Shown here one piece after another: positions 1-62,570 of a DNA stretch of 64,000 bases; positions within the stretch are counted from its first letter, which is position 1, and every line of letters starts with the position of its first letter. Where the stretch lies: NCBI GenBank assembly GCA_029204225.1, contig CM055106.1, positions 45,019,313-45,083,312 on the forward strand. Reading direction: 5' to 3'. The DNA is from Diphasiastrum complanatum (taxonomy: Eukaryota; Streptophyta; Lycopodiopsida; Lycopodiales; Lycopodiaceae). The position numbers and the translations under genes were made by a program. Under the pieces are notes generated by a model that saw nothing but the letters and a program-made list of their open reading frames with translations, did no database searches and had not been told where the DNA came from.

Positions 1-1482
1 AATCGTCGAGCAACCAGGCAAAAACATCTTGATACTCCTTCAATAGTTCAATGAATTCCGCTAACTCCGATTCTCCAAGTGACTTTGAAACATGCACAAA
101 TCTGTCAGGTGCAAGTTCAATTAGTTTAGTAGAATCTAGTGATATGATACCTTCTGTCATACTGGCCTTGGTATGGCCATGAATTTCGCACATGGTTGAC
201 TCCATAGATGTTTTCTTGTCATCAACCTGGCTCTTGTTACCAAATTCGTGTTCAGATTCGTCACTCGAATCATCAGACTCTTTCAAATTCATGTCTGCAA
301 CATTAATTTCTTCATACGAAACATCCGCTTTAGTGTTGCAGGCATCGAAGAATTCTTCTTCGACATTCTCATAACATTCGAAATATTAGACTTCAATGTC
401 AAATGCATTAGAAAAAACATTTAAGGCATAAGAAGATTCCTCTGATGTAAACTGGTGTTAGACAAAGACGTTTCACCTTCATATTTGTCCCGACTCCAGG
501 TGATTATTTGTTCTGCTGGCTTACCACGATTATTGTTATTGGTCTCACCAGTCTGAAATCTTAGCTCTCTGGATTTCCAATAAACACTTGTGTTTGATTG
601 ATAAAGTCAGGGTCGTCCAATCAGCACAGAATAGGATGACAAACCGAGTGGTTTGATAACTATGAAATTCATTGTGAATGGCTTGGCTTGAATGTAAATA
701 GTGACATCCTTCAGTTCTCCAACAGGTTTTTGTCATGTCGAATCAGCTAACTTAATATTTCGTTGTGTTGGTTGAATGTCAGTCGGCCTTAAAGCATAAG
801 CTGTGTCTTCTATTATTATGTTCATGCTGGAACCAGAGCCAATTGGCACTTTTTCAATCAGGTATCCCGCAATGGTAATATCAATTTCAGGTGCACCGAG
901 GTCACCTAAATCAATAGACAGAACACCAACATCTGGCAAAGAGATTTTTTTTTTCTTTTTCAGTGCAGAAAGACCTTTTAGTCGCTTTCTGTAATAAGTG
1001 TTATCTGCCAGCATCTGCTCAAAAGTAACATTCGGACGAAGTGATCCAATATCAGTCACGATGTCATAGTCTTTTGTCTTCGATGGCTTATCAATAACAG
1101 CAATACACAATTTCATCTTCGTGATTTCATCGCCCCCTTCCTCGAAAGTGACCATCTTCTCTGCAGCAGCTGACTGAAGTTCAACGTTGATAATTTCTTT
1201 TGCCTCTACTGAGATATCTTTTGCAAATAACTTCGCAGCATCGAGGTCATAGTTGGGGTCATCTTTGAGATCTTCTTTAGTCACAGATTTATTCGTCGTC
1301 TTGCTAAAAGATTTCTTCTTCGAGGATTTTTTGCGCTTTGTTGAAGATTTTTGGTCAGGTTTCGAGGAGCTTTTGCTTCTCGTTGTGACTTTGAATATCT
1401 TCTCCACGTCACTTGGCCCAGTACTGATCTTCTGTCTTCGCCAATTTTTCTTCAATAACGTCAATTCTCTGCACAACGGCAT
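1..1482 (-). pseudogene. Element A pol 5' part: retropepsin and pre-RT linker
   Basis: The retropepsin would cleave the element's polyprotein in the cytoplasmic particle. Reading leftward: a lysine/serine-rich stretch, a protease core around 820-910, a second conserved block with GRPWLY near 570-580, then an acidic linker to EYQDVFAWLL at about 10-40, the usual lead-in to gypsy RT. The active site reads IGSGSSMNI where the family has DSG, so the catalytic aspartate is glycine (GGC at about 838-845). Frame changes occur near 735 and again near 460. Neighbouring gag lies in another frame upstream. Clearly a decayed gene; the window edge removes RT. Confidence 0.85.
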
Positions 1483-1504
1483 CAGTCGAAGCTTTCGCTT
1501 TTGG

Positions 1505-2907
1505 TGTTGCTACATACTAATATTTGGGTCATGGCTTCTGCGGCTGAGGGCAGTCAGGATACTTGTGGCCATGCTCTCTACAGTTCGAGCATAACGGTAC
1601 ATAACCAATCGGCCTTTGCGGCTGAGGACAGTCAAGTGAAAAATGTCCCGGCTCTCCACAGTTATAACAATTGCCCGACACTGGTTTAGTCGCGGTTTGA
1701 GACTTCGTTGGTCCAACAAATTCAGGAGCATTATGTCTTCTTGGTGCGAACTTGGGTCTGTCCTGTTGGGCTGATGCTGCAGTACCCCGAACATAGTTAG
1801 TACTTGCATCATTTTGAAAAATAAAAAGTACCTCTTGGGCAAGATCTTCAATGTATTTGACATTCGCAGTGGTGCAGTCTTCCTTAGTGTGTCCTGAAAT
1901 TCCACATTTCGTACACCACATTCCTGAGTTGAAAGAAGACGCTTTCGGTCTTTTATCTGCAACTTCAGAGATTTGCACTTTCAAGTCATTAAATTTTTTA
2001 TTAAGGTCAGCCATATTACTCTAGCAAAGCTTTTCAACTTTAGAAGTTGACGACTTATCCTCAACAACTTTCGTGTCGTCCTTTCGTTTGGATCGTCGTC
2101 TCTCTCCTTTGTCAGCTTCTGATTCTGATAAATCGCTGCTTTCAGATTCCGAACTTGAAGAACTGGTACTTGAATCAGAATCTGAATCATCCTCATTGTC
2201 ACTAGAATCAGTCTTCGACTTTCGAGATTTCTTAGTTGATCGTCGCTTTCGTGCTAGTTTCGAGGTCTCAAAATTTTCGACACTAGCTATTATTGTTGCC
2301 AAGGAGGTCATGTCCCCTTGTCTGCAATACCGATCAATCTTTGGTAGTAAACCAGCCAAAAACCATTCGATCTGCATACCAACGGGGTATACACCGGTTA
2401 GTTTTCCTATGAGATTTTTAACCTTTCGTGTATATTTGTAAAGGGATTCTTTACTCTTCTTCTGAACATTGTTCAGACGTCCGAGAATTCTCGATTTGTA
2501 ACTGATTTCTCTGAACTGGTTCAAAAACGCATCTTTCAGTAGGTACCAGATACACGGCCTGGTTCAACTTGACTGTACCAGATGCGCGCCTGCTTTCTTA
2601 GCAGACCAGGGAAGATTCGTAGTTTGTCAATGTCAGTACCTTCGTTATTCGCATTAGCGATTGACTCGAATTGTGAGACATAGCTATCTGCATCGTCAGA
2701 AGAAGTCCCTTTAAAATAATGGTATTTAATTTTTGATATAGGAGTGAAACGTGCAACATGACCCTCCATACCGAAGCTAATTAGGAGTTCAAGTAACTAG
2801 GCAGTGATTTTGTCTAGATTTCTTCGACTAGTACTCTCACTTTGTCTTCGTAAAAATTCTTCTATAAGCTTATGATATCATTCTAATCTGGATTCTCTAT
2901 TTGACAT
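1505..2907 (-). pseudogene. Element A gag with three zinc knuckles
   Basis: Gag packages element RNA. The likely start is the ATG at 2907, because the reading continues through two stops into the conserved capsid block near 2580-2770 (YFKG...DADSYVSQFESIA). A frameshift lies near 2530, then the capsid C-terminal half to about 2200. A strongly acidic Ser/Asp/Glu run (about 2100-2220) precedes a basic patch. After another frame change near 2020 come three CCHC knuckles: CTKCGISGHTKEDC (about 1895-1935), CYNCGEPGHFSLDC (about 1630-1670) and CSNCREHGHKYPDC (about 1555-1600). The same acidic-run plus knuckle layout is seen in family B. Confidence 0.85.
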
Positions 2908-2958
2908 ACACTAGAGATGGAGATGGATTTGTCAGATTTCTTATAACTTTCCTAACTA

Positions 2959-2976
2959 TCCCCGACAACGGCGCCA
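2959..2976 (-). promoter_or_regulatory. Element A primer-binding site (tRNA-Asp type)
   Basis: Read on the minus strand this is TGGCGCCGTTGTCGGGGA, matching the PBS common to plant gypsy elements and complementary to the tRNA-Asp 3' end. It lies 12 bases inside the LTR boundary and upstream of gag, which fixes the orientation. Confidence 0.85.
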
Positions 2977-2988
2977 AAAATTGGTATA

Positions 2989-4252
2989 TGTCGTACTATA
3001 CCAACAAGGTTAATATAGATTTTCTAGAAAATAGTGTCGTTCCCACAGGTTACAATGTTAGAAAGTTATGTTTTTGGTACAATTTATACAAGTGGTGTCG
3101 AGTGTTATTTTGGTTGTCGACAGACATTAAAAAGTAACCAATATTACTTATATTTGGGTGTGTGGTGTTGATAATTTTCAGAACAACAATCTGGCCTCTA
3201 TCAAATCGAATGAAAAGCGTTCTACAGATGAGATGTTATCATAGTAGTACAACAAGACTACACTCTGGTTGATTAAGGTGTCAACAGAGAGTCGAGAAAT
3301 GTTCGATGTATTTGCATCTGGGCAAACAATTAATTAATCGTGTTCGCAAACTATTCGTTTCTAGACAGAAGTCCTCAACAACTAAAGTCCAAATTAATGG
3401 TTAAAAAACACAAGTGGTTTTAGAGCACGTTATAAACTTATGTCAATGCCAATCAGGAAAACAGATCAAAGACTCAATTCTTCAGACAGGGACTGTCATC
3501 TCATATGTATACATACAGCTTTATTCAATGATCATGCTAGATTGTACCAAAGATAGTTGTTATTCGAGTGCCAAAAAGAAAGTATTCGCGACAGACGAAT
3601 AAGATGGTTTTAAGACAGTTCTTTAGAGCATGCTTTACGGATACACAACAAACGACTGTAATGCACTAGAGCATATGTCTGATCAGAGAGTAATTCATGT
3701 AATGCATTAGAGATTGTTAGCAGACTCAAGATCACTCACACTCAGTAGTGCGGAGAACAGAGATAAGAGAGAATAACTCACAGAACTCTATTCACTTCTT
3801 CAATCTCTTACATATGTATAAACTCTTCTCTCTCGATGATCGAGATTGAAGTGTGAGATCAATGTATGTTCTATGGGACGAACAAACACACCTCTAAAAC
3901 AACAGGTGCGTCGCTTTCGCGAAAGGGTCTAGTTAACAATTAGACAAAAAATACGTTCAATTATACCATGAAAGGTATATTTAACTAAGAGTTAAAGTTA
4001 CTCTAGTTTAACATGTCTTTTCGTATCTAGTCGTTTCGGGTGGACGACCTAGTAAAGGTTATCCAAGGCAATGTCTTTCCTATTAAAGGTCTTGCCCTTA
4101 ATTACAAGGCAAGTACTTAGGAGATATATTCCCAAAAAATGACTTTAGGCCTCTTTGTGATTTATAGTTAACCAGCTCATATCTTCATTTTCGAGTATAT
4201 CATGCCATATTTATGTTGATATTCAATTTTTTAATAATAAGGTGGCATCACA
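2989..4252 (-). repeat. Element A 5' LTR, 1264 bp
   Basis: On the minus strand it starts TGTGATGCCACC and ends GGTATAGTACGACA, the TG...CA termini of an LTR, directly before the PBS. The same LTR recurs on the plus strand at 31231-31766 (3' part) and 48753-49866 (lacking the 3' part), which confirms both ends. The right flank is GATTT, expected to be half of the target duplication. Confidence 0.88.
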
Positions 4253-4783
4253 GATTTACAGGCAACATCTCTGAAGAGATGATTCTAACTGTTTGTTTGC
4301 AAGGAATTAATTGAAGCTGACAACATTCGCATAACCAGAACTTCTCTTATTTTTGAATGAGTTTATGTGCTCTGATAAAGAACATAATTGTCGTTATGCT
4401 TTGATTGCTTCTCAGTGATGATAACTAGTATCCTTGCGCTCATCAAGAGGAATCAATGCCTATCAGATTCTATTTTGCAGAATCTATTTGCTAACCTCTA
4501 TCAGGTAAGTTGCTTTCTATTTATTATGTTGCTTGGAAGATAAAGTATCCCTTACATTCTCAGACTTTGACCAAATCGTTTCATAATTGGTGTTACTAGA
4601 CACCAATCCAATTCAATATCTTTGGATAACCAGCTATGTCATTGTAGTATTCGCTTCTAAATATTACATACATCCTTTGTACACTTATCATCCATAAGAG
4701 GAGATTTCTCTCTCTCTTGGGAAATGATAAAACCTTTTATACTACAGATTTTGTGGAAATTTTATAACGACTAGACTACTAGA
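4253..4783 (+). repeat. Gypsy B1 5' LTR, 3' portion
   Basis: Homologous over its whole length to the LTR of B2 (about 32285-32845), starting at the shared GATTTACAGG and ending just before the PBS. Its first roughly 50 bases are absent because element A inserted here. The expected terminal CA reads GA in this copy. Confidence 0.8.
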
Positions 4784-4788
4784 TAACT

Positions 4789-4806
4789 TGGCGCCATTGT
4801 TGGGGA
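4789..4806 (+). promoter_or_regulatory. B1 primer-binding site
   Basis: TGGCGCCATTGTTGGGGA, the tRNA-Asp-type gypsy PBS, six bases past the LTR end and about 60 bases before the gag ATG. Confidence 0.85.
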
Positions 4807-4867
4807 GACGAATTTTCATCTTTTATGATTTTTAATTGTACTAAGTCCGCTGAATCTTATTCAATGT

Positions 4868-6060
4868 ATGCCACGAGATCATCCACACGCAACTACTGAG
4901 TAGAAACGCTTAGAGCGAGCACATCGATTAGAAGCATATGGGAAAGCACGTGATTTGTACTTTCAGAATTTGTTAAATTCACCTATAAGAGCTGGACTAA
5001 GCACTAAAGCATTTGATAATCTTTATAACACTTCCGTATTACTTGTTAATTCATTTGAGGAGGAGTTTATTAATCCGTCGGATCATTCAGATTTACCATT
5101 GAAGAAAGTTTTGATTTTGGTTCTGAACCAGAGTATGAGTCATAACATGCGCCATCATCTGACTCAGAATATAGTTCCGGGTCCTGATCCTGATCCACCC
5201 GATCCTAATCCACCGCCTAACCCACCACCTGATAATATGGCGAACCTAGCACCAACCACATCTACCAAAATCAAATATGACTAATGAGGATACAGTTAGA
5301 ATATTGCCAGGTGTTCTGTGTAAGCAGGCGAGAATCTGGTATAGCCAGTTGGTTCCGAAAATGGTTAATACATGGCAAGCCTTGAAGGCTGTATTTCAAA
5401 AATAGTTTAGGGAGATAAGGTATTCTACTAAACTGCTAGCTCAGCTTCATTCTGTGGAGAAAGAGCCGAAGGAGTCGCTCATGAAATATACTTGTAGAAA
5501 TAAGAACTTGATAGATAAGCTAGGGGCACAGTATCCTGTCCCCATGCAAAGTAAATGGTTCTTGGATGGATTACCCAAGAAGATGGATAGGTACTGTTGT
5601 CATGGATTGATGAATTCGTTAGAGGATGTCATAGCATCCGAAGAGAATTATGAAACTTCTAAAATTTCTAGAGGAAGAATAAATGATAAAAAGAGTAATA
5701 AAAAATATAAACAGAGAAGAATAGAAGAATCTGACTCGTCTACTGAGTCTGAATCATAATCTGATTCATCGGATGATGAAGAGTCTTCTGATTCTTCATC
5801 CTATTCTTTTTCGTCTGAAGAAGAAACTACTTATAGGAAATCAAAGAGTAAGAACTTAGATAGGAAAAGAAGGATGGAAAAGTCTGAAAAGACGGATCCA
5901 TTAAGAAAGAGTAGAGCTTTTAGCGAAAGAGATGGGGGACTTGAAAGTCCAGATGTCTGATGTTAAAGCTAAGAGAAAGAAAACTAAATCAAACGCTAAT
6001 GTTTGGTGCACGACTTGCGGTAAAGAGAGACACTCTAAAACAAACTATCCTAATTTACAA
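4868..6060 (+). pseudogene. Element B1 gag
   Basis: The ATG at 4868 begins a frame that aligns with B2 gag (ATG at 32911). After an N-terminal alpha-rich part there is a proline-rich tract (about 5190-5240), then the capsid block around 5270-5640 containing KQARIWYSQ and MQSKWFLDGLPKKMDRY. A Ser/Glu/Asp-rich tail follows (about 5720-5830). The single knuckle near 6005-6045 reads CTTCGKERHSKTNY, with the last cysteine changed to tyrosine. Several stops and frame changes (for example at 5282, 5402 and 5757) make it non-functional. Part of the capsid start seen in A is missing near 5275. Confidence 0.82.
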
Positions 6061-9096: not shown

Positions 9097-10560
9097 ATGC
9101 TATGTTATGTCAATATAACTCTTAATGATAGGACCAAAGGAGGATCCATCTTCAAGGAAAGGTATATTTGTTGGATATAGTGAGGTGAGTGCCTACAAGA
9201 TTTACATTCATACTACTAACAAAATGATTGTTGGGAGAGATGTCATTTTTTATGAGGGGAACATTCCAAAAGTATCTTCAAGTATTATTGATGATGATGT
9301 AGATGGATCTAACATTCTTAATGATGATGATATGAATTCTACTTTGGATGGTGATGATGAAGGACCTTCATCAAGTTAAAAGCCAAGGAGGACATCAAGG
9401 CAAAGGCAAACATCTTCAAGTATCACTTATGATGAAAAGGGTAAGCAAGTAGTTGCTAGAACTAATTATGCTTTCCTAACCTCTTTTGATGAACCTACAT
9501 GTCTAGATGAAGGAAGGAACAAAGAGGAGTGGATCCAAGCAATGGATCTTGAGTATCCAGCTCTCATGAAGAATGGAACATGGAGATTGGTGGAGTTACC
9601 TAAGGACAAGAAAGCCATTGGATGAAAATGGATCTTCAAGGTGACGACAAACCAAGATGGATCTATCGACAAGTACAAGGCAAGGTTGGTGGCAAAAGGA
9701 TATGCTCAAGAACATGGTATTGACTATGATGAAACCTTTGCACCCGTGACAAAAATGGTGAGTATTCGGATCATCATTTCTATTGCTACTCTTTATGGAT
9801 GGGATCTATGGCAATTGGACATTAGATATGCATTTTTGAATGGTGATCTTGAGGAGAAAGTGTACATGGAGCAACCCGAGAGCTACATTTCACCTACAAA
9901 GCCAAATCATGTGTGTCTTCTACAAAAGAGTTTGTATGGCCTTAAGCAAGCACGAAGGAGTTGGTATGCTAAGCTTAACACTTTTCTACTCTCTCAAGGC
10001 TTTGTTATGAGTGAGTATGATCATTCACTTTATTATAGGTTTTCTAGAAAATGATGTTACCATTCTGCTAATCTATGTGGATGATATTATCTGGAGTGGT
10101 GGAGACAATTAAGATGTGGAGGATATCAAGAGTGCTCTCAAGAAGGAGTTTGAGGTGCATGATCTTGGTCACTTGCATTACATTTTAGGAATAGAAGTGA
10201 TTAGATCTTCTCAATCTACTTTCATTTGTCAAGAGAAGTATGCTAATTCTATTCTAGAAAGATTTCATATGGTAGATGCAAAGTCTTGTGATACACCAAT
10301 GGAGTCTCATGTAAAGCTAACTATAAGAGGTAATGAAAGATCTTTCAAGAAACTTACTCTCTATAGAAAGCTAGTTGGTTCACTCATCTATTTATCTATT
10401 ACAAGACCAAATCTAAGCTATTGTGTTGATAGATTGAGTCAATTCTTTCAAGATCCTAGTGAGGAGCATTGGAAGCTAGGAAAATGAGTTTTGAGGTATA
10501 TCACGAGAACTCGAGATTTTGGCATACTATATGAGGGACCATCATCTAACTTATTTGGAT
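9097..10560 (+). pseudogene. Copia D: integrase tail and reverse transcriptase fragment
   Basis: The first part (about 9097-9380) is the C-terminal end of a copia integrase (GIFVGYSE, VIFYEGNIP) with an acidic DDD-rich hinge and is close to the same segment of elements C and M. RT follows: KYKARLVAKGYAQEHGIDYD at about 9670-9730, the first catalytic region QLDIRYAFLNGD (about 9813-9850), SLYGLKQA, and YVDDI in a shifted frame at about 10073-10090. The thumb and start of RNase H continue to LRYITRTRDFGILY near 10495-10530, then the match stops. At least three frame breaks and stops (for example TGA at 9623) are present. No LTR or PBS adjoins it. It shows that the C/M family originally carried RT. 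Confidence 0.88.
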
Positions 10561-11967
10561 TCAATCATCAAGTATGGATTAAGTTTTGAAAATTTATTTT
10601 TTCTTGTCTTTCAGATCTACCTACGGCATTTTTTACTCATACATTTCAAAAAATATATTAGTTGTATTTAGCTTTTTTGGCTAGTTGTTGTTTTTAATGA
10701 CTCCAAAAAGAAAAATTGTAACGTAATTGTTGAAATTAATGAAACAAACTATAATTGGTGTTTATCATTTTTTTGTAACGTTTAAAAATTGATTTTTACG
10801 AGCTCTGAAATGCATGCTTGCTGCTCATCCCTGCAAAGTGAGACATTATTCTCATAATCGCTGGAGCAACATTTTTGGGCAGGGTGATTACAAATTGATT
10901 TACTCCATTTGGCCATGTCCTCCACATCAGGCCTTTACGTGTACGCAGAGTGAAAACTATAGCTTATTTTTGTAGTGATGCGTGGCGTAGCAAAAAAAAT
11001 TGAACTATTCATTGCTATTCTCAGCATAACAAAAAACTTTCAAAAGTTTTATTTGCTATGCTAGAGACCCTACCCTTCAAGGTGATATTCACCAGTCGGA
11101 CACAAGTTCTTTAGCTGCGCAATGCCCCTGCCTCGGGCCTCTACATGTACGCTTAGTGATAATCAATCTTCTTTTTGCTATGTTGAGGATAGCGAAAAAA
11201 AATTGAACTGCTATGCTCAGCATAGCAAAAAAGTTTTAAAGGTTATTTTACTATGCTCAGCATAGCAAACTAGTCTTTTAATCATTTTTTTCTTTTGAAA
11301 AAACTATTTCCATCAATGTGATATTCATTAGTCAGGCACTTCAAATTTAAAAAGTCATGAATGGTAAAAATCACGTTGAAGGGCAGGGTTTCTTCAAACG
11401 GAAAAGCCAGTTCAAAAGTTTGGAGTCGTATGCTCAGCATAAGAAGCTAGGGTTTGCTAAGGAGCTGCCTGTGCACGCGTATCTGGCCTAGAACAAGCAG
11501 GATCACCACCTTCTGCAACGATATTTATTGCTGAAGCTTTTGACAGTGAAAAGTTTTTTCTTATCAGAAACAAATCGCCTTGGTAGTAAAATGGAGGCCA
11601 ACTTGCTCCTCTTTCTGCACGCCAGTTTTTCCTTCGAACTGCTCCCGTCTACTTTTGCACCCGGCCTTCTACCGATCTGGTTGCTATTGTTTCTTCTTGA
11701 TAGACTAATTGGATATGCAGAATCCTAAATTCGGACAATATAGAACGGGTGGATGAACAGCTAGACAGTGTGTATGGCTAATCGGCACTCGTATAAGACA
11801 ATTATAGACATCAACCAGCCTTGTGATGCCTTAAAAGACGTGAGTAATTATGAGGCAAAGTTACTTGCTTGTGGGTATGGACATAGTAACATATGCAAAC
11901 GTGTAAACTAAAAAACTGATTAAATTCGATTTTGTATTAAAAAATCTCAATCATACAAACTTCGATA
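10561..11967. repeat. Non-coding interval with CAGCATAGCA palindromes
   Basis: No coding sequence recognised. It contains repeated odd palindromes built on TGCTATGCTCAGCATAGCA (perfect at 11209-11227; close copies near 11005-11025, 11251-11267 and 11430-11445) and an approximate duplication of about 235 bp (compare 11068-11110 with 11300-11345). Its position just beyond ORF3 of element E makes it a candidate for E's 3' LTR, but I could not find a matching LTR at E's other end. Confidence 0.45.
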
Positions 11968-22838: not shown

Positions 22839-23640
<802 letters not shown>

Positions 23641-26832: not shown

Positions 26833-27530
26833 CTAAAAAGCTCTAGATCTGGTCCTTGACGCTGATTGGTCTTCTGAACAATGGTGTGGTCCTTCAGCAC
26901 CACGTGACTCCATAAACCAAGTAGTTTGCACTAGTCCATCTTCAAGATCTACTTGACACAAGAAAATGACCATGAATTCACCAAAAATTGACAATCTCCA
27001 AGTATTGGCACCAAGTAGCTGAACACTTGAGAACTTAGCCATGGATGAGTGACATAATGAACCTCCAATAGCTTCATTTCCATCAGCAAAATCAGCCAAG
27101 AATGCTAGTACAAATCCAACATCAAAACAATGCTCACCAATGTAGCTAGTTTTACCATATCTTGACAATTTGCACACATCCACATGAAATTGCTCAAACA
27201 TGAGATAGAAAAAGTAAAGTAAACTTGAACAACACTTCCTTGCTGCTCCTTTGATCTTACTTGAGTCTTCAATATGCTGCAAAAACAGATCCATAACACC
27301 TTTGCCAATTACCTCTCCTTTGATGCTCTTGACTAGCTCCAGATTGCCAACTTCCCTTTTGACTAGTTGAAGCGCTTTGAGATCAACCTCTTGATCTTCA
27401 ACTTGACCATCGAAGTCATTGAACAAACTTTGTTTTCCAGATCCATTACTTGATTTTATAGCAAGATAACATCCATCCACTTGCATAGCTCCATGTACAC
27501 AAGAAGATCTTCCAAAAGATGTTCCACTCT
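26833..27530 (-). other. Foreign segment replacing RT in copia C
   Basis: Begins where RT should start (after MKSGT). It contains DGQVEDQEVDLKAL, LYFFYLMFEQFHVDVCKLSR and DVGFVLAFLADFADGNEAIG. The stretch 27025-27465 is homologous to 61086-61510 in element M, including an equivalent position after the integrase hinge. No RT, RNase H or known domain is recognisable. Downstream of about 27025, C and M differ. It may be a captured host gene fragment. Frame is open in C and broken in M. Confidence 0.75.
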
Positions 27531-29325
27531 TCATAAGAGATTGATACTCAAGATCCATTGCTTGGATCCACTCCTCTTCTTTCCTTGCCTGATCTACACT
27601 TGTAGGCTCATCCAAAGAGGTTAGGAAAGTAACATAATTTCTAGAAACTACTTGCTTACCCTTTTGATCATATGTGAGCCTTGAAGGTACTTGTCTTTCT
27701 CTTGATGTTCTCCTTGGCTTTTGACTTGATGAAGGTCCATCATCACCACCATCCAAAGTAGGATCCTTCTCATCAACATCAAGAATGTTAGATCCATCTA
27801 CTTTACCATAAATCATGCTTGAAGACACCCTTGGAATGTTTCCCTCATAAAAAATGACATCTCTACCAACAATCACTTTGTTAGTAGAAGGAATGTAAAC
27901 CTTGTAGGCTTTACTCACTTCACTATATCCAACAAAAATACCTCTTCTTGAAGATGGATCCTCCTTGGTTCTATCATCAAGAGTAATGTTGACATAGCAT
28001 GAGCATCCAAAGGTTCTTAGAAAGTTGACACTCGGCCTCCTCTTGAATAGCATCTCAAAAGGTGTCCTTCCATCCAAAATAGCACTCGGCCACCTATTGC
28101 ACAAGAAATTGGCACACAACAAAGCTTGATCCCAAAATGGTTTGTCAAGATTAGCACTTAACCTCATAGCTTTAGCACTTTCACATAAAGTCCTATTTTT
28201 CCTTTCAGCCACTCCATTTTGTTGTGGGGTCCTTGATGTTGTATACTCCCTCTTGATCCCATGCTCATCACAAAAGGCCTTGAACTTGTTAGATATGTAC
28301 TCACCACCATTGTCACCTCTCAAGCACTTGATCTTTGTGGAGAATTGGTTCTCCCTTGCATTCTTGAACTTGACAAAGACAACATACACTTTATCCTTGC
28401 TCTTTAGTAGATAGATCCAACAAAATCTACTAAAATCATCAATGAATGTTACATACATCTTAGCTCCACTATTGCTAATTGTAGTAAATCCATAAATATC
28501 TGAATGTACAAGTTGAAAAGGCTTTGTACATCTAGAAATAGATCTAGTATAAGGTAGTCTATGTGACTTAGACAAAGCACAAGACTCACAAATATGCTTG
28601 TCATTACTTAAGGAACTTGGAAGACCAATCACAACCTTCTTCCTTGCCAGTACCTCCAATGACTTGAAGTTGAGGTGTCCCATCCTTTTGTGCCAAACCT
28701 CTTGAATAGAAATTTGCTCCCTTGCAACACATCCAACTTGGTTAGCAATAACACAAGCATCAAGTTTGAACAACTTCCCTTGCCTTTTACCTTTTCCAAT
28801 CAAGACATCCTTCCTTTTGATCAAACAAGCATCTCCATCAAACTCCACCTTGAGGCCCTTACTTAGCATTTGACTCACACTAAGCAAATTCTTGGTAATA
28901 GATGGAATAAACAAGACATCCTCCAAATGAACATTCCTATTTGTAGAGAGAGAAATAGGAATTGTGCCAATCCCTTTGATTGCACACTCACCATCATTGG
29001 TCGTGTAGATCCTCTTGTCATCTCCATATGCCAACAAAGAAGTGAAGTACTCTTTGTGAAAGGTCATGTGTGAACTTGCTCCACTATCAATCCACCAAGG
29101 ATCTAGATCTCCATCATTATCAAGCATACATGAAGACATCACAAAAGCATAATCATTTGCATCTTGCACATCCAAACCATCCTCATCAAGAGTAAGATTA
29201 CCTTGCTTGTCTCCTTGATCTCTCTTCTTCTTGTAGCACTCACTTGCAAAGTGTCCTTTGATGCCACAATAAAAGCACTTGAGCTTTGATCTATCCTTAT
29301 TTTTTCCACTTGAAGAAGCATCCAC
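26833..29325 (-). CDS. Copia C pol: protease-integrase fused to foreign sequence
   Basis: An 830-codon open frame. Zinc knuckle CFYCGIKGHFASEC at residues 17-30. Retropepsin DSGASSH with catalytic Asp at residue 80. The integrase zinc domain starts HKRMGHLNF and includes CESCALSKS. The core triad is VHSDIYG, RGDNGGEYIS and QQNGVAERKNRT. The integrase tail GIFVGYSEVSKAYKVY is followed by an acidic hinge and EEEWIQAMDLEYQSLMKSGT, the usual entry to RT. There the frame passes without a break into about 230 residues that are not RT. The frame begins at a GTG directly after an in-frame TAA (29326-29328); upstream gag is in the same frame, so the original product was probably a gag-pol fusion. Confidence 0.85.
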   Translation of the reverse strand: MDASSSGKNKDRSKLKCFYCGIKGHFASECYKKKRDQGDKQGNLTLDEDGLDVQDANDYAFVMSSCMLDNDGDLDPWWIDSGASSHMTFHKEYFTSLLAYGDDKRIYTTNDGECAIKGIGTIPISLSTNRNVHLEDVLFIPSITKNLLSVSQMLSKGLKVEFDGDACLIKRKDVLIGKGKRQGKLFKLDACVIANQVGCVAREQISIQEVWHKRMGHLNFKSLEVLARKKVVIGLPSSLSNDKHICESCALSKSHRLPYTRSISRCTKPFQLVHSDIYGFTTISNSGAKMYVTFIDDFSRFCWIYLLKSKDKVYVVFVKFKNARENQFSTKIKCLRGDNGGEYISNKFKAFCDEHGIKREYTTSRTPQQNGVAERKNRTLCESAKAMRLSANLDKPFWDQALLCANFLCNRWPSAILDGRTPFEMLFKRRPSVNFLRTFGCSCYVNITLDDRTKEDPSSRRGIFVGYSEVSKAYKVYIPSTNKVIVGRDVIFYEGNIPRVSSSMIYGKVDGSNILDVDEKDPTLDGGDDGPSSSQKPRRTSRERQVPSRLTYDQKGKQVVSRNYVTFLTSLDEPTSVDQARKEEEWIQAMDLEYQSLMKSGTSFGRSSCVHGAMQVDGCYLAIKSSNGSGKQSLFNDFDGQVEDQEVDLKALQLVKREVGNLELVKSIKGEVIGKGVMDLFLQHIEDSSKIKGAARKCCSSLLYFFYLMFEQFHVDVCKLSRYGKTSYIGEHCFDVGFVLAFLADFADGNEAIGGSLCHSSMAKFSSVQLLGANTWRLSIFGEFMVIFLCQVDLEDGLVQTTWFMESRGAEGPHHCSEDQSASRTRSRAF

Positions 29326-30000
29326 TTAATCTTGCCCTTTAGACCACTTGCTTTTGGTTTTTCCCTTGAATTTGCCCTTTGTGAACATAGCATCCTCTTG
29401 AAGTGTTGATGTAGATCCACCTCTTGCTTGAAGTCTATATTCCTCATTGATCAAGATCTCTTGAAGATCCATCAAACTTGGCAAAGTCTTTTGAATAGCA
29501 ATACTTTGAACAATTTTAGCATGAGCATCCAACAAGCCATTAAGAATCACTTGAATAAGCTCTCCTTCCTAAATGCTTTCATCTATGCAAGCTAACTCAT
29601 CATTCGATGCTTTCATTCTCAAAACAAAAGTACTTGGACTTTATTCATTCTTTTGCAAACCAGAAAAGATTTGCCTTCTTAGAGTCAACACTCTAGAAGT
29701 AGACTTGGATTCATAAAGCTTCTTCAATGAATTCCAAGCTTCCAAAGATGATGTGCACTTACCAACTTCCTTGAGAAGTTCATTGGTAACATTCATCTTT
29801 ATCATGTGTAGAGCCTTCTTGGCCCTCTTGTCATACCTCAATTGATCTTGTTGTGCTGCTGGTCTCTCTTCCAAACCTACAACAATATCCAAAACATCAT
29901 TCATCTCAAGAAGTGACTCCATCCTCACTTTCCATAATGAATAGTTACTTGAGGTAAGCCTATCATTGGCTTCCAACATGACTCCAATTGAGGTTGCCAT
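29326..30000 (-). pseudogene. Copia C gag
   Basis: ATG at 30000 opens 119 codons matching copia gag: MLEANDRLTSSNYSLWKVRM, then KMNVTNELLKEV and SKSTSRVLTLRRQIF. A stop at 29641 and frame disturbance (29551-29640) interrupt it. The frame recovers at 29550 with LMDLQEILINEEYRLQAR and runs to a TAA at 29326, in frame with pol. It resembles gag of J and of fragment I. Confidence 0.85.
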
Positions 30001-30583
30001 GTAGCAATGACCTGATCTTCTCTTTCAACCTGTTTCACAAAGCACTCCTTTGAACAACAACAAATGCTTTCAAAAAAAATCACCAAGATTTGAAACTATC
30101 TCACAAATTCTCTTCTAGCACTTATCCAAGAAAATCAACACATAGAATCATAGAATCTTGATCAACCTATGATCTATCCTCAATCTAATGACTTTTGCCA
30201 CTTCCTAAGATTGAAACACACTCAAATGAAGTCCAGCAACCTCACTATCTAGAGATCCGATCAAAATTAAAGTTTTGACAAAATCACAAAAAATTGACTA
30301 TTCCAAATCTACATGCAAATGCTGAAAATTTGATATGCAATCTATAAGCCACCACTTAGGCTGAACCAATGATCCAAAAATCGGCCAAATCCAGCATGTG
30401 AATTCAAAAAACAGAATTGAACAAGTATACTGACCTATTTAGTGTTTTGATCTACAAAAGATCCAATCTACAAAAGCAAAAAATCCGATTTTGGTGTAGA
30501 ATCCTCTCTAGCATGCTCTAGACTTGATATCTTCACCAAATCATTGATAGATATGATTTCCTCCTTCATAACCTAAAACACAA
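30001..30583 (-). other. Copia C leader
   Basis: Untranslated region between PBS and gag ATG. A-rich with no ORF of note. It probably holds packaging signals by position only. Confidence 0.6.
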
Positions 30584-30595
30584 GCTCTGATACCA
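30584..30595 (-). promoter_or_regulatory. Copia C primer-binding site (tRNA-iMet type)
   Basis: Minus strand TGGTATCAGAGC immediately after the LTR end, the standard plant copia PBS. Confidence 0.93.
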
Positions 30596-31230
30596 TGTGA
30601 AAGATTTCAGATCCTTAAGATCCAATCTACTTGAATGATCTTTGGTTAGAAAGAGAAATACACTATCAATTTCACCAATGTAGAAAAATCAGCATCGAGA
30701 TACAAACACTAATAGAACTTGATCAAACTTGAATGAAATGATTATGTACTATTGCTGTCCGTACAAAACCATCAAGCTACTATATTTCACACGTGTGGAT
30801 CCAAAAATAGCAAATATAGATCATTCTACACATAGAATTGCAAGCAATCACCAAGATAGTGCACCAATGGATAGTAGAACCCAAGAGAACCATGTATAAG
30901 CATGAAATGAGATAGAGAAGAGAGAAGATGACTCTCTCCACGAGTTACATCATTTTATAGCAGGTCCAAACCCTATTTGGCCACTTGGCTTTCCCACCAA
31001 AATGCTAACCCTACCAATTTTGGGTCTAGATTCAATGTACCCAACTTATTCAAATTGAATCTACTCAAACTCGCATTCTATCTTTCCCACACTTTCAAAA
31101 AGTGTTTATTCAAATGAAATTTAGACTAATGAACTTTGAAAAGTCAACCTCTAAGTCTAAAACAAGTTTTGGCCTCATGCCAAATATGGAAATATTGCAA
31201 AATGTGATGAAACTAGTTGAATCTTTCACA
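30596..31230 (-). repeat. Copia C 5' LTR, 635 bp
   Basis: Ends TGTGAAAGATT...AATCTTTCACA form a perfect short inverted repeat. A homologous LTR lies at 62089-62570 on the plus strand. In element orientation the central part contains a TATA-like TATAAAA near 30955 followed by the shared block ATCTCATTTCATGCTTATAC, a likely promoter and transcript start region. Confidence 0.9.
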
Positions 31231-35460: not shown

Positions 35461-36862
35461 CTTAATGTGGATCCTGAAAAACTTTGATCTTCAGATTTAA
35501 CATATCATTAAATCTGAGATGTTGCTCCTTTGATAGAGCCTTTGTGAAGTAATCTGCTGTCATGTAGTTTGTTCTGCAGAAAACCAATGCTACTTCTTTG
35601 CTATGCACTTTCTCTCTAAGGTAATGATACCTTATTTCAATATGTTTGCTTCGAGAGTGAAATCTCGGATTGAGAGATAGCGCTATTGTGCTTTGATTGT
35701 CACAATAGATTGTTGTAGGAAGTGGTTGTGCAAGGTTGATGTCTGCAAGCAGTTGCCTTAGCCAGATCATCTCTGTTGCATTTGTGACAACTATGTATTT
35801 GGATTTTGTTGATGATAATGCAACTGAGGTCTGCTTCCGGCTGTTCCATGAGATTGGGCCTTGGTTGTATAAAAATAAAAATCCAGAAGTTGATTTTTGG
35901 TGTCGACATCTCCTACCCAATCTGCATCTATGTAGGGATGTTGGCAGTGTGGCTGCCTCCGTAATAGATGCCGAGAGCTTTTGTTGCTTGGATGTACTTC
36001 ATGACCTTTGTTAGTGCCTTCCAATGAGTTAAGCCTAGATTTGACAGGAATTGGCTGAGTGCACTGATTAAATATGCAAGGTCTGGTCACATGCAGATCA
36101 TTGCGTACATTAGTGAGCCGATGATGGATTGAAACGGGTAGCGCTTGATCTCCTCCTTTTCTGCCTTAGTTTGAGGAGATTGTTTGATAACTTTAGTCCA
36201 AGGTCGAGTGAAAAGTGACTTGGTTTGCAGTTGGCCATTCCATACTTTTCCAGCACATTGTTGAGATATCATTGATGAGTGTGTAGGTCGATCTCGTTGG
36301 ATTTGGATTCCGAGACAATAGTGGGCTGGACCTATGTTAGTCATCTTGTATTCCTAGGCCAACATACTTTTTGTGTCCTTTATCAGATTTAGATTGTTAC
36401 TAAATAAGAGTGTATCATCTACATAGAGAGTGATGATGATGAAGTAGTCTGATATAGACTTGAAATAGACATTCTAGTCTGCTGAGTTTGAAATAAAACC
36501 ATTCTCTATTAGAAATGCATTGATCTTCTGAAACCAGGCTCTTGGTGACTGTTTCAGCCCATAGAGCACCTTGTGGATTTTGCATACAAGGTGATGTTGC
36601 TTGCCGTTGAGTTCGTATCCCTCTGGCTGCGTCATATAGATTTTCTCTTCGATGGTTCCATTGAGGAATGTAGTTTGACATCCATCTGGTGAACTTCAAG
36701 ATCTGTTGCGACTGCAAAGGAGAGGAGTAGGCGGATCGAAACATGTTTGACAACTAGATGGAAGGTTTCTAAATAATCCAGATTTGGAATATGGGAAAAG
36801 CCTTTGGCGACTAGCCTGGCCTTGTAATGATTTAGCCTTCCTTCAATGTCGTACAAGCAATA
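35461..36862 (-). pseudogene. Copia N: reverse transcriptase and RNase H
   Basis: Reading leftward from 36862: YDIEGRLNHYKARLVAKGFS, the RT palm start with HQMDVKLH, broken frames with the HYCLGIQIQRD block near 36300, then RNase H at 35920-35470: STSGFLFLYNQGPISWNSRK, SVALSSTKSKYIVV, IYCDNQSTIALS and SKHIEIRYHYLREKV. Several frameshifts interrupt RT. It ends at the last internal base before where the 3' LTR would start (compare 22467), but no LTR is present. Family-mates are the 3' fragment at 22 kb and probably element O. Confidence 0.85.
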
Positions 36863-48752: not shown

Positions 48753-49866
<1,114 letters not shown>

Positions 49867-55593: not shown

Positions 55594-56385
55594 AAGTACA
55601 AGAGCATAAGCCATTGATCTAATGCAAATCCATTTTTAGCAAGTTTTGGTGCTAAAAACTAGTATTGAGAGGGCAAGCTAGAATCTTGATTTTGGTGAGG
55701 AGATTTGATCCCAAACTTGGTAGGGGTCCAAATCCATACTGTCCACATGTGTGGGCACCTCTGAACCTGAATTTAATGCATGGTATTCATTTGATCCAAA
55801 AAAATTCAATTTGTGAGCTGTTGGTGTAATTTTTGGTGGAGATCCTAGGATAATCTACCAAGATCATTTGCCATTGATTAGATTTGAATTTGTTTCATGG
55901 AATCTAATTAATCTAGGCTGAGTTCAAGTCCTATTAAGGTTAAAAACAGGTCTTGAAAGTACACCAAGAAGGAAGAAAGAGATTAAGCCATTTTTTTGTC
56001 CAAAAATAGCCAAAATTGGCAAGATTTGATTGTAAGTAGATTTCACATCATCTTATCTTCATTCCAACTTTGTGAGGGAGTGCTAGAACTGAGATTATAA
56101 GTCCATTTGTTGGATTAGAAATCTAATTTGAGTGAAAAACTACAAGAGAGAGACCTTAGTGAGTTTCTAGAGACAATCAAATCCATTTCTTGGCAAGATT
56201 TGTTTGAAAGTAGTTTTCACTTCATCTTATCTTCATTCCAGCTTTGTGAGGGAGTGATACAACTGTGATTATAAGTCCATTTGTTGGATTAGAAATCAAA
56301 TTTGAGTGAAACACTACAAGTGTGAGACCTTTGTGAATTTCAAGTCAATCAAATCTATTTCTTGTTTGTAGAAGTCACTAGTAAG
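55594..56385 (+). repeat. Element J leader with 174-base tandem duplication
   Basis: Untranslated leader. Units 56018-56191 and 56192-56364 are direct repeats, about 90% alike by eye, each starting GGCAAGATTTG and ending ATTTCTTG, directly upstream of the gag ATG. Confidence 0.88.
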
Positions 56386-57984
56386 ATGGGATCTGCTGGA
56401 GCATACCTTCTAGAAGCTAGTGAGAGGTTGAATTCTACAAATTATGCTATTTGGAAGGTTAGAATGGAGTCACTCTTGGTTCTCCAAGACCTTTATGAGT
56501 TCTTGATTGAAGATGAAGATGAACCTCTAGGTGCACAGGAGTTAGCTAGATACAAGAAGAGATCTAGGCTTGCACTTCATTGTGTGAAGATGAATGTGAG
56601 CAATGATTTGTTGAGAGAAGTATTAGCTTGTACTAATGCTAAAGAGGCTTGGGAGTCTTTAAAATCAATCTATGAGTCTAGCAACACTTCTAGAGTTCTT
56701 ATGCTTAGAAATCAAATTTTGCAAAGCATGAGGAGAAGTGAGGAGAGTGCACATGATTATGTACTCAGAATCAAGTCTCTAAATAGGGAGTTGGCTTCCA
56801 TTGGAGAGAAGATTCATGATGAAGAGCTTGTACAAATTGTCCTTAATGGTCTAGGAGATGACTTTGCAAATTTGGTCCAAAGTTTTGCCATCCAAGACGC
56901 TTTGCCAACTATAGAAAAACTTCACAGTGTATTAGTGGCTGAAGAGTGTAGGATGCTCCATGCAAAATCTAGGATGAGTTCCTTGTCTTTGAAGGATGGT
57001 GATGAGAAAGCCAATTTCTCATTCAAGGGCAAAAAGAAGAACAATGGAAAGAAGAAGCATCCAAAGGAGGCCAAAGAAGAGGATGATGCATCAAGCTCAA
57101 AGGACAAGTCAAAGCAAAAATGCTTCTTTTGTGGAAAGAAGGGGCATTATGCATCTGAATGCTACAAGAGGCTAAGAGCACAAGTGGAGGAGGACAAACA
57201 AGGAAACCTTGCAAAGGAGGAGGAGGAGGATGAAGTAGATGTATTCTTGATGGCATCTACATCCTCACCAACAAGCAATAGCAATTCAAGAGACAATTGG
57301 TGGATCGACAGTGGGGCTAGCTCCCACATGTCTTGTGAAAAGGACTTTTTCTCAACCTTACACTCTTTCAATGATGCTAAAAAGTTTGTCTTTACTGCAA
57401 ATGATGAAGAGTGTAGGATAGATGGTGTTGGCACCATCTCTTTGTGTCTAGAATCCTCAAAATGCATGGATCTAGAAAACGTCCTTTATGTACCATCAAT
57501 CACCAAGAATATGCTTAGTGTTGGTCTACTCTTAGAGAGTGGTTTGGATGTCCACTTTAAGCATGGTGTTTGCTTCATCTTGAAGAATGATGTTTGCATT
57601 GCAAAGGGATTTAAACATGGAAGATTGTTTAAGTTGGAAGCTAGTGTTGCTTTTGAAAGAATGAGCTTGGCGAAGGAGGAGATTACTCAAGAGGAGATCT
57701 TGGCAAAGTGTGATCTTGCTTGCATTGAGGAGGAGCATCAAAAGGAGGAAGATCTTGAGGATCAGTCTCAAAGCATGAGAGTTCCAAGGGAGTCCTCAAT
57801 GACAATGGCCAAGTCATCAAATTGCATGCAAATTGTCCATTCAAGTGTGCATCTTGCAAGGGTGGTGAGCATTGGAGAGTCTACTATCTTTGAATACTTT
57901 TTGGAAAGTATTAGTAGACATGAGGTGACTTGTTTCTTACCTTTAAGATCCATGGTGTTTATTCCTTTGTATGACAAGCAATGA
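56386..57984 (+). CDS. Element J gag-protease
   Basis: Start chosen at ATG 56386 because it aligns with gag of I (MG..LLEASERL); the frame is open further upstream but without ATG. About 532 codons. Copia gag domain: YAIWKVRMESLLVLQDL, KMNVSNDLLREV, SNTSRVLMLRNQIL. A Lys-rich linker precedes the knuckle CFFCGKKGHYASEC (about 57121-57165). The retropepsin is intact: WWIDSGASSHM (about 57300-57330), followed by LENVLYVPSITKNMLSV. After FKLEAS the integrase zinc domain expected in copia is replaced by an acidic, Glu-rich stretch and unrelated residues. No interruption is present, in contrast to most genes here. Confidence 0.9.
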   Translation: MGSAGAYLLEASERLNSTNYAIWKVRMESLLVLQDLYEFLIEDEDEPLGAQELARYKKRSRLALHCVKMNVSNDLLREVLACTNAKEAWESLKSIYESSNTSRVLMLRNQILQSMRRSEESAHDYVLRIKSLNRELASIGEKIHDEELVQIVLNGLGDDFANLVQSFAIQDALPTIEKLHSVLVAEECRMLHAKSRMSSLSLKDGDEKANFSFKGKKKNNGKKKHPKEAKEEDDASSSKDKSKQKCFFCGKKGHYASECYKRLRAQVEEDKQGNLAKEEEEDEVDVFLMASTSSPTSNSNSRDNWWIDSGASSHMSCEKDFFSTLHSFNDAKKFVFTANDEECRIDGVGTISLCLESSKCMDLENVLYVPSITKNMLSVGLLLESGLDVHFKHGVCFILKNDVCIAKGFKHGRLFKLEASVAFERMSLAKEEITQEEILAKCDLACIEEEHQKEEDLEDQSQSMRVPRESSMTMAKSSNCMQIVHSSVHLARVVSIGESTIFEYFLESISRHEVTCFLPLRSMVFIPLYDKQ

Positions 57985-60626: not shown

Positions 60627-60844
60627 ATATCGGAGTGGAGAGCAGAAGTACGACTGCTCAGGATCCTCTTTAACTTGTGCGCATGGATTTGATATTGGAG
60701 CATGCGATATCGGACTGGAGCGCGGATGTACAACTGCTAAGAATTCTCTTTAGCTCATGCGCTTGGATCCGATATCGATATGGACATGCGATATCGGACT
60801 GGAGCGTAGATGTATGACTGCTCAAGTTTCTCTTCAGCTAGCAT
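60627..60844. repeat. Minisatellite, about three 75-base units
   Basis: Three units sharing GATATCGGACTGGAGCG, ACTGCT(A/C)A and TCTCTTTAGCT phrases, at about 60627-60705, 60706-60790 and 60791-60844. The middle junction carries an extra GATATCGATAT. Confidence 0.75.
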
Positions 60845-60850
60845 AGTAAG

Positions 60851-61108
60851 ATGAGTAAAGCCTACAAGGTTTACAATCCTACTACTAATAAGGTGATTAT
60901 TGGTAATATTCCAAAGGTGTCTTCAAGTAATGATGGTGTGGATGGATCTAACAATCTTGATGTTGATGTGATGGATCCTACTTCAGATGGTGATGATGAA
61001 GGACCTTCATCAAGTCAAAAGCCAAGGAGAACATCACGGAAAAGAAAAACACCTCAAGGCGCACATATAATGAGAAGGAAACTAATGGATTTGGAAAAGA
61101 GGTCTTAG
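60851..61108 (+). pseudogene. Copia M integrase tail and hinge
   Basis: 85 codons with VSSSNDGVDGSNNLDVDVMD and SSSQKPRRTSRKRK, matching C and D. The frame leaves the match at about 61080. Confidence 0.8.
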
Positions 61109-61740
61109 TCAATTACTTTGATAGTCAAGTTGAAGATCAAGAGGTTGATCTTAAAGGGCTCAACAAGACAAAAGGGAAGTTGGCAATTTGGAGCTAGTCA
61201 AGAGCATCAAAGGAGATGTAATTGGCAAAGATATTATGGATCTATTTTTGTAGGTTACTGCAGACTCAAATAAGGTCAAAGGAGTATCAAGGAAGTTTTT
61301 TTCAAAATTTACTTTACTTGTTCTATCTCATGTTTGAGCAATTTCATGTGGATGTGTGCAAATTGTCAAGATATGATAAAACTAGCTACATTGGTTTGCA
61401 TCATTTTGATGTTGGAGTTGTACTAGCATTCTTGGCTGGTTTTTTTGATGAAAATGAAGCTATTGGAGGCTCATTATATCACTCAATTATGAGCAAGTCA
61501 TCAAGTGATGATGGCATCTTGTGGAAAGATGGAGATGGAGGCCCATTCATGGACTTTTATGGTGGACACATGGCAAGAAAGTACAAAGATGGAGGAGACA
61601 TGCAAGCAAATGGTGATCACTCACATTTATTGTTTGGTTGCTATAATTTTCCAGAGAGTTCAACATTTGAAACATAGAGGAATCATTTCATTTACATTCT
61701 TTTTTATTCTTCATGTTCTAGTTACATCTTGACATGTAAA
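61086..61740 (+). pseudogene. Foreign segment in copia M
   Basis: Homologous to C's RT-replacing segment up to about 61510: FDSQVEDQEVDLKG, and the open stretch 61222-61677 with LYLFYLMFEQFHVDVCKLSR and ENEAIGGSLYHS. Frame is lost near 61180. After 61510 it continues with SSDDGILWKDGDGGPFMDFYG, which C lacks. No family recognised. Confidence 0.7.
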
Positions 61741-61879
61741 ATTGATGTAAGAAATAGTGAAGCATCCAATATGGACACTATTCTCTATATGAATTATGGA
61801 AGCTACTTAAAAACCTTGGAAAGGAGGTCTATACTTAGGATGGAGATCACTCTAAAGTTGGATCAAAGTTCTATGGTCA

Positions 61880-62096
61880 AAACTATGCTAGGAGCAAGCA
61901 TATTGAAGTGGCATATCACTTTGTGAGGGAGCAAGTCATGGCAAAGGAGGTGGAGCTTCAACAATTTTCTTCAGATGAGTGTGTAGCTGACATCTTCACC
62001 AAATCATTTGGAAAATACATGTTTATGAAGCATAGGACCTCACTTGGAGTGTTATCAAAGTCTATACTAAAACTATTTGAAGAGGGAGTGTGAGAG
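61880..62096 (+). pseudogene. Copia M RNase H C-terminus
   Basis: SKHIEVAYHFVREQV and CVADIFTKSFGKYMF are the last conserved blocks of copia RNase H. It ends at a stop overlapping the LTR start. Catalytic residues lie in the missing part. Confidence 0.85.
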
Positions 62097-62570
62097 ATTT
62101 CAAGTAGTTTGATCAATTTGGTCATATTTGTTTATTTGGCAATTGAGGCCAATTTTCATATTAGACTAGATTTTGACTTTTCAAAATTATATTAGTCTAA
62201 AATAATCTGAATTATCACTTTTGGAAAGTGAGGTAAATGTAGGAGGTTGAGTTTAGTAGATTCAAATTTGAATGTTGAATTTACTCCACATTATTGATAG
62301 GGTTTTTGTTATGGAGGGAAACCAAGATCATTAATGAGTCATGGATCTATTATATATAGATATACACACTTGGGAAGAGAGGCATTTTCTCTCTCTCATC
62401 TCATTTCATGCTTATACATGAGTTCTCTTGGGTTCATTTATCCATTGGTGCACTATCTTGGTGATATCTTGCAATGTTGTGTGTAGAATGCTCATTTTAT
62501 GCTATATTTGGATCCACACGAGTGGAATACAATAGCTTACTATTTTGGATAGGAAGTCCAATAGTTGATT
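62089..62570 (+). repeat. Copia M 3' LTR, 3' end missing
   Basis: Starts TGTGAGAGATT after polypurine GAAGAGGGAG. Homologous to the C LTR through the block ending near 62555. Confidence 0.85.

Follow-up and report, generated by a model that had tools for sequence, protein, structure and literature searches.

Element C and the segment that replaces its reverse transcriptase

The window analysed here, a 64,000-nucleotide stretch of Diphasiastrum complanatum (assembly GCA_029204225.1, contig CM055106.1, positions 45,019,313 to 45,083,312), contains a retrotransposon, element C, in which a different segment occupies the place of the reverse transcriptase (RT). The family of C is a Ty1/Copia long terminal repeat (LTR) retrotransposon, as seen from its gag, protease (PR), integrase (INT) and RT order, LTRs of the form TG...CA, primer binding site (PBS), polypurine tract (PPT) and 5-bp target-site duplications (TSDs). 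Element C itself lies on the minus strand at 31230-26895 and reads LTR, PBS, gag-PR-INT and segment before it is truncated at 26895. Its 5' LTR (30596-31230, minus strand) aligns to both LTRs of the full copy L019 from elsewhere in the genome, the LTR ends of the family being TGTGAAAG...CTTTCACA. The PBS, read in the sequence as TGGTATCAGAGCTTGTG (30579-30595, minus strand), adjoins the LTR directly and presumably matches initiator tRNA-Met; its first 13 nt are common to the copies of C, of its autonomous relatives and of a further retroelement type, X, that were compared.

The gag, protease region, integrase and hinge up to the RT start occupy 27521-30000 (minus strand), as judged by Pfam and by alignments to L019, X and autonomous copies; the gag of this copy has in-frame stops. 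A minus-strand open reading frame (ORF), 29325-26833, is open for 830 codons. Pfam matched it to a zinc knuckle, Pol_BBD, GAG-pre-integrase, the integrase core and an SH3-like domain, and RVT_2 was absent from the matches, the scan covering C from 29325 downstream. The RT-replacing segment (26895-27520, minus strand), delimited by alignments and by the truncation, covers bases 1-626 of the 1,064 bp present in full copies. The first-pass annotation had described an open frame that passes from integrase and hinge into about 230 non-RT residues, and both ORF and Pfam bear this out except at the very end. The last ~20 residues (26894-26836) belong to flanking DNA read through by the ORF (26833-26894, minus strand): the alignment to L019 ends at 26895, and among 40 scored genome matches all except the window itself start at query base 61-64.

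Genome searches covered the 1.74-Gb assembly, and DNA searches scored the best 40 candidates each. Scored matches to C were 98-100% identical in 40 of 40 cases (the best 40 of 3,350 candidates). From these matches, which came from a query spanning the 5' junction, 20 copies were fetched; they therefore do not sample the genome at random. Self-comparison recognised a complete or partial LTR pair in 11 of the 20, the LTRs being 94.9-98.5% alike. The full copy L019 measures 6,036 bp and consists of LTR, gag-PR-INT, RT start, the 1,064-bp segment (element positions 3738-4801), RNase H region, PPT and LTR. We take the region that follows the segment or the RT to be RNase H from its position and motifs; Pfam gave no RNase H match in a scan that included the autonomous-type copies L033 and L035. 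In the three C copies translated (L019, L024, L014) this region is out of frame with the segment.

Domain swap and transposition

RT-bearing relatives were found with a further window element, D, as query (best 40 of 10,000 candidates), and three of them were fetched (L033, L034, L035). Outside the swap they are 96.9-98.2% identical to L019. L033 and L035 align to it over 1-3737 and 4802-6036, L034 likewise without element positions 2443-3067, and where C has its 1,064-bp segment all three have 879 bp. On L033 and L035, Pfam recognised Copia-type gag, Pol_BBD, integrase and SH3, and then RVT_2. In L035 this match, to model positions 1-243 of 244, spans residues 834-1077; since the swap starts at about residue 836, nearly the entire RT domain is removed. 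Element C is thus a domain-swapped form of this autonomous family. Two of the copies fetched are themselves damaged: an in-frame stop interrupts RT in L033, and in L035 the reading frame changes within the RNase H region.

Element D, a plus-strand fragment at 9102-10561, comprises the integrase end and hinge (9102-9581), RT (9582-10461) and the RNase H start (10462-10561). It is 86-87% identical to both sides of the swap in C and keeps RT between them, in agreement with its earlier description as a relative that retains RT. The window also contains, at 35513-36799 (minus strand), a Copia RT-RNase H stretch that has diverged to 36-40% identity with the autonomous family.

The 5' junction is common to all 21 C copies (the 20 fetched and the window). 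The 3' junction is common to 19 of the 20 fetched copies, the exception being L025, which passes from the segment to the RNase H end. A genome search for further copies with the segment between integrase and RNase H had been proposed, and in the same 19 copies the RNase H start indeed follows the segment. The two junctions lie 1,062-1,065 bp apart in 19 of 20, which leaves no room for RT.

Patterns at no more than 3 mismatches, by which junctions and not complete elements are counted, placed the 5' junction of C (32 nt) at 2,033 sites genome-wide, the corresponding autonomous site at 2,187 and the 3' junction of X at 2,104, with controls of 0 in each case. The junction of the chimera is therefore about as frequent as that of its parent. 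A 3' junction lacking the RNase H core occurs at 681 places (control 0), in partial overlap with the 2,033. Two local accumulations were noted on contig C1. Between 24.38 and 25.26 Mb, 14 segment starts flanked by GTGAAAGATC, together with three near-variants, fall within 0.9 Mb, which suggests that one variant was amplified locally. Four matches to the X 3' junction (C1:25526015, 25529104, 25532193 and 25535282) are spaced exactly 3,089 bp apart and probably represent a tandem array of retroelement-derived units.

The ends of C could be located in seven of nine copies tried, three of which have perfect TSDs and two TSDs with one mismatch. The TSDs of X are perfect in four of four copies (flanks judged by eye), and those of the autonomous type in two of three, the third not being located. 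The PBS start and the PPT are common to C, X and autonomous copies. The LTRs, PBS, PPT, TSDs and ~2,000 junction copies show that the chimera has transposed. As it lacks RT, has transposed all the same and shares LTR, PBS and PPT with an RT-bearing family, C is a non-autonomous partner of that family, presumably mobilised in trans by the RT of intact autonomous siblings.

Carriers and evolution of the segment

Besides C, the segment is carried by the retroelements of group M, found in the window, and of group X; a third carrier, the relative Y, is more diverged. Element M had been said to carry a homologous segment in the same place, and it does. A plus-strand remnant of integrase end and hinge (60843-61079, 76% identical to L019 element positions 3330-3596) is followed by the segment (61080-61896, 83-88% identical to the C and X segments) and then only by a C-terminal RNase H remnant with part of the 3' LTR (61897-62546, 79% identical to L019 element positions 5183-5854). 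The M segment contains frameshifts, as does that of Y.

The Y copy L036 is 91-94% like the family of C, and its segment is 92% like that of C. Its order is integrase, hinge and segment, without the doubled RT-start motif of C. At 5043-5450 of L036 an in-frame run leads from the segment into RNase H-like residues, which appear, from a motif, to resemble the RNase H of a different Copia, and then into a long (GA)n tract; (AG)n stretches matching this tract occur in the window at 22895-22975 and 49151-49250.

The X type consists of gag-protease and a tail of ~700 codons, without detectable pol. In its copy L032 (1898-5332, contig C4), gag-PR and this tail form one frame of 1,145 codons, between LTRs identical over 656 bp. 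A further Copia gag-PR ORF of 552 codons, ~46% identical to the gag-PR of X, lies in the window at 56326-57984. About 174 bp of the segment are confined to the C type (L019 element positions 4237-4407, window 26895-27020). X, M and Y lack them, and elsewhere in the fetched DNA nothing was found to match this stretch over its full length.

Between C and X, gag-PR has a synonymous divergence (dS) of 0.66 and a ratio of nonsynonymous to synonymous divergence (dN/dS) of 0.28. The corresponding values are 0.08 and 1.63 for the first block of the segment, and 0.14-0.15 and 1.03-1.11 for the whole segment. Since the dS of the segment (0.08-0.15) is far below that of gag, C and X came to share the segment after their families had split, with recombination between retroelements as the immediate event. 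Within X (6 pairs of 4 copies) dN/dS is 0.28-0.42 for gag-PR, 0.37-0.89 for the middle of the tail and 0.77-1.65 for the segment; the gag of the pol-less X type thus looks constrained, as in L032, and the segment at the end of the tail does not. Among the young C copies the values are 0.69 (gag-PR), 0.90 (integrase), 1.34 (segment) and 0.92 (RNase H), and among the three autonomous copies 0.94 (gag-PR) and 1.08 (integrase). Constraint is thus invisible within the C and autonomous family, so that it is X, and the comparison of C with X, that provide the contrast. Differences among the C, Y, X and M segments number 49, 65 and 55 at the three codon positions (of 251 each). The segment drifts like neutral sequence, with dN/dS about 1 and no protein constraint.

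The segment is nonetheless largely open: 15 of the 21 copies of C, and three of the four of X, have no in-frame stop in it (aligned codons only). Two copies chosen for being open, L024 (C) and L032 (X), have no stops across 286 shared codons despite 118 differences and a dN/dS of 1.03. Neutral simulation of this pair predicted about 6.4 stops and gave 0 and 2 stop-free runs of 1,000 (from either end), or 38 and 19 of 1,000 with half the changes. Three of the four internal indels between them are multiples of three (9, 174 and 12 bp), and the fourth, of 1 bp, lies close to the 3' end. Why defective elements retain long open frames is the question raised by a segment that is largely stop-free and yet unconstrained.

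Origin of the chimera and comparison with known systems

At the 5' joint of C, the autonomous ...GGAACAT meets the start of the segment. The hinge before the segment in X and Y reads ...ACAT, and by this arrangement the RT-start motif is present twice in C. The segment ends in CTATGCTAGGAGCA, followed by the RNase H start in the main form and by the RNase H end in M and L025; in X, CTATGCTAGGAGCA is followed by CTATGC and the end of pol. Such short homologies at the joints suggest template switching. We consider it very probable that C is a non-autonomous Copia subfamily derived from recombination between retrotransposons, most likely by template switching. The parents would have been an autonomous element (gag-PR-INT-RT-RNase H) and an older non-autonomous one of Y/M/X-like kind that already had the segment in its RT region. 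During reverse transcription of co-packaged RNAs, a setting we favour over DNA recombination, the copying strand may have jumped at shared words, ACAT at the RT start and, in the main form, AGGAGCA at the RNase H start. In the product a foreign segment would have been enclosed by autonomous-family LTRs, PBS, gag, PR, INT, RNase H and PPT, and this chimera would then have been amplified to ~2,000 junction copies. We infer that the joint of M and L025 is the older one and that the main form regained RNase H at AGGAGCA; alternatively, the joint of L025 arose by deletion between 12-nt repeats.

Several observations weigh against this account. The actual donor was not found among the fetched copies, as X, M and Y lack the 174 bp of C. 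DNA end-joining could likewise produce junction words as short as these. No TSD was seen in two of the seven C copies with located ends, and the choice of query favoured the 5'-junction structure among the 20 fetched copies. At 378 places the segment start has a different or mutated flank; among the 100 of these listed are many point variants of C and also hinge-flanked forms such as Y.

The first-pass annotation had proposed a non-autonomous subfamily that captured a host or foreign gene fragment and then transposed. Non-autonomy, loss of RT and transposition are borne out by the LTRs, PBS and PPT, TSDs and junction copies, but the nearest sources found for the segment are the retrotransposons X, M and Y. 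A coding fragment of a host (or other foreign) gene could still have been captured once by their ancestor and later passed to C, which we regard as possible, if on the unlikely side. The segment has a coding-like composition and codon-position pattern with the best codon score in frame 0, and its body has no convincing likeness to any retroelement domain. Against this, no Pfam, PDB-sequence or Rfam match was found for it, its first ~60 nt resemble a Copia hinge and RT start, and no host gene locus or intron was found among the best 40 matches scored, where a low-copy source would sit behind thousands of better ones.

That resemblance would fit a long-decayed RT-RNase H of an old non-autonomous lineage, so that RT was exchanged for its own ruined counterpart, an explanation we hold to be unlikely. 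The evidence for an RT origin of the segment body is mixed and on balance not convincing. The C segment scored above 100 of 100 dinucleotide shuffles against RT, with roughly colinear alignments, but in controls gag or integrase scored higher for C and M, and the lead in X vanishes without the RT start; hhalign of the segment body against RT gave 0.2%, a value exceeded by 5 of 30 shuffles. It is quite improbable, in our view, that the segment is a spacer ORF of free sequence, selected for openness and not for its protein. Openness might then keep ribosomes moving past gag or shield genomic RNA from nonsense-mediated decay, an early stop after gag would harm an RT-less element, and the spacer would have passed between Copia families by template switching. 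There is hardly any chance that C and M merely adjoin a shared unrelated repeat, or that the ORF is a chance reading. The final residues of the window ORF do lie outside the element, but the junction recurs in every C copy and at 2,033 genomic places, and LTR-bounded copies have TSDs.

The comparisons below draw on parts of the cited papers. In Einkorn wheat, the non-autonomous RLG_Quinta encodes GAG together with a domain of unknown function (DUF), DUF1, and has PBS and LTR ends in common with the autonomous RLG_Cereba (PMC11302176). Such a GAG-DUF partner is very like the X type. RLG_Quinta and RLG_Cereba are, however, centromeric RLG elements (Gypsy by name code) whereas C is Copia, and the section on the pair mentions no RT swap within an otherwise 97%-identical sibling (PMC11302176). 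Wheat RLG_Sabrina/RLG_WHAM and non-autonomous RLC_Angela are abundant and co-evolve with autonomous families; Sabrina variants have unique coding segments, and Angela is a Copia element (PMC9744471). The coding sequence of non-autonomous Angela is described as highly degenerate, with frameshifts and stops (PMC9744471), whereas the segment of C is largely open and the rest of C near-identical to its partner. Barley BARE2 has a disrupted GAG and keeps its other genes (PMC9744471). It resembles C in that one element of a partner pair lacks a protein function, but it loses GAG where C loses RT.

Copies of C and their RT-bearing counterparts form a clean before-and-after pair, with 97-98% identity on either side of a single domain. 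In such a pair one can read from sequence how a non-autonomous retrotransposon arises and how retroelement families exchange modules. LTR swapping has reportedly been described in soybean (Du et al. 2010). Template-switch chimeras among Triticeae complex elements (PMC1950507) and Onsen recombinants (PMC5668417) likewise produced new structures by recombination between retroelements. The Triticeae, Onsen and soybean cases involve fused elements, LTR exchange or within-family recombination, and not a swap of RT for a non-homologous segment, while TARE1 (PMC3701649) is a different case from C. No RT-for-segment swap was found in the literature surveyed, largely papers outside subscription. As far as these sources extend, C belongs to a known kind, that of semi-autonomous GAG-DUF and BARE2-like partners, and is new in its clean swap of RT and in the drift of an open frame.
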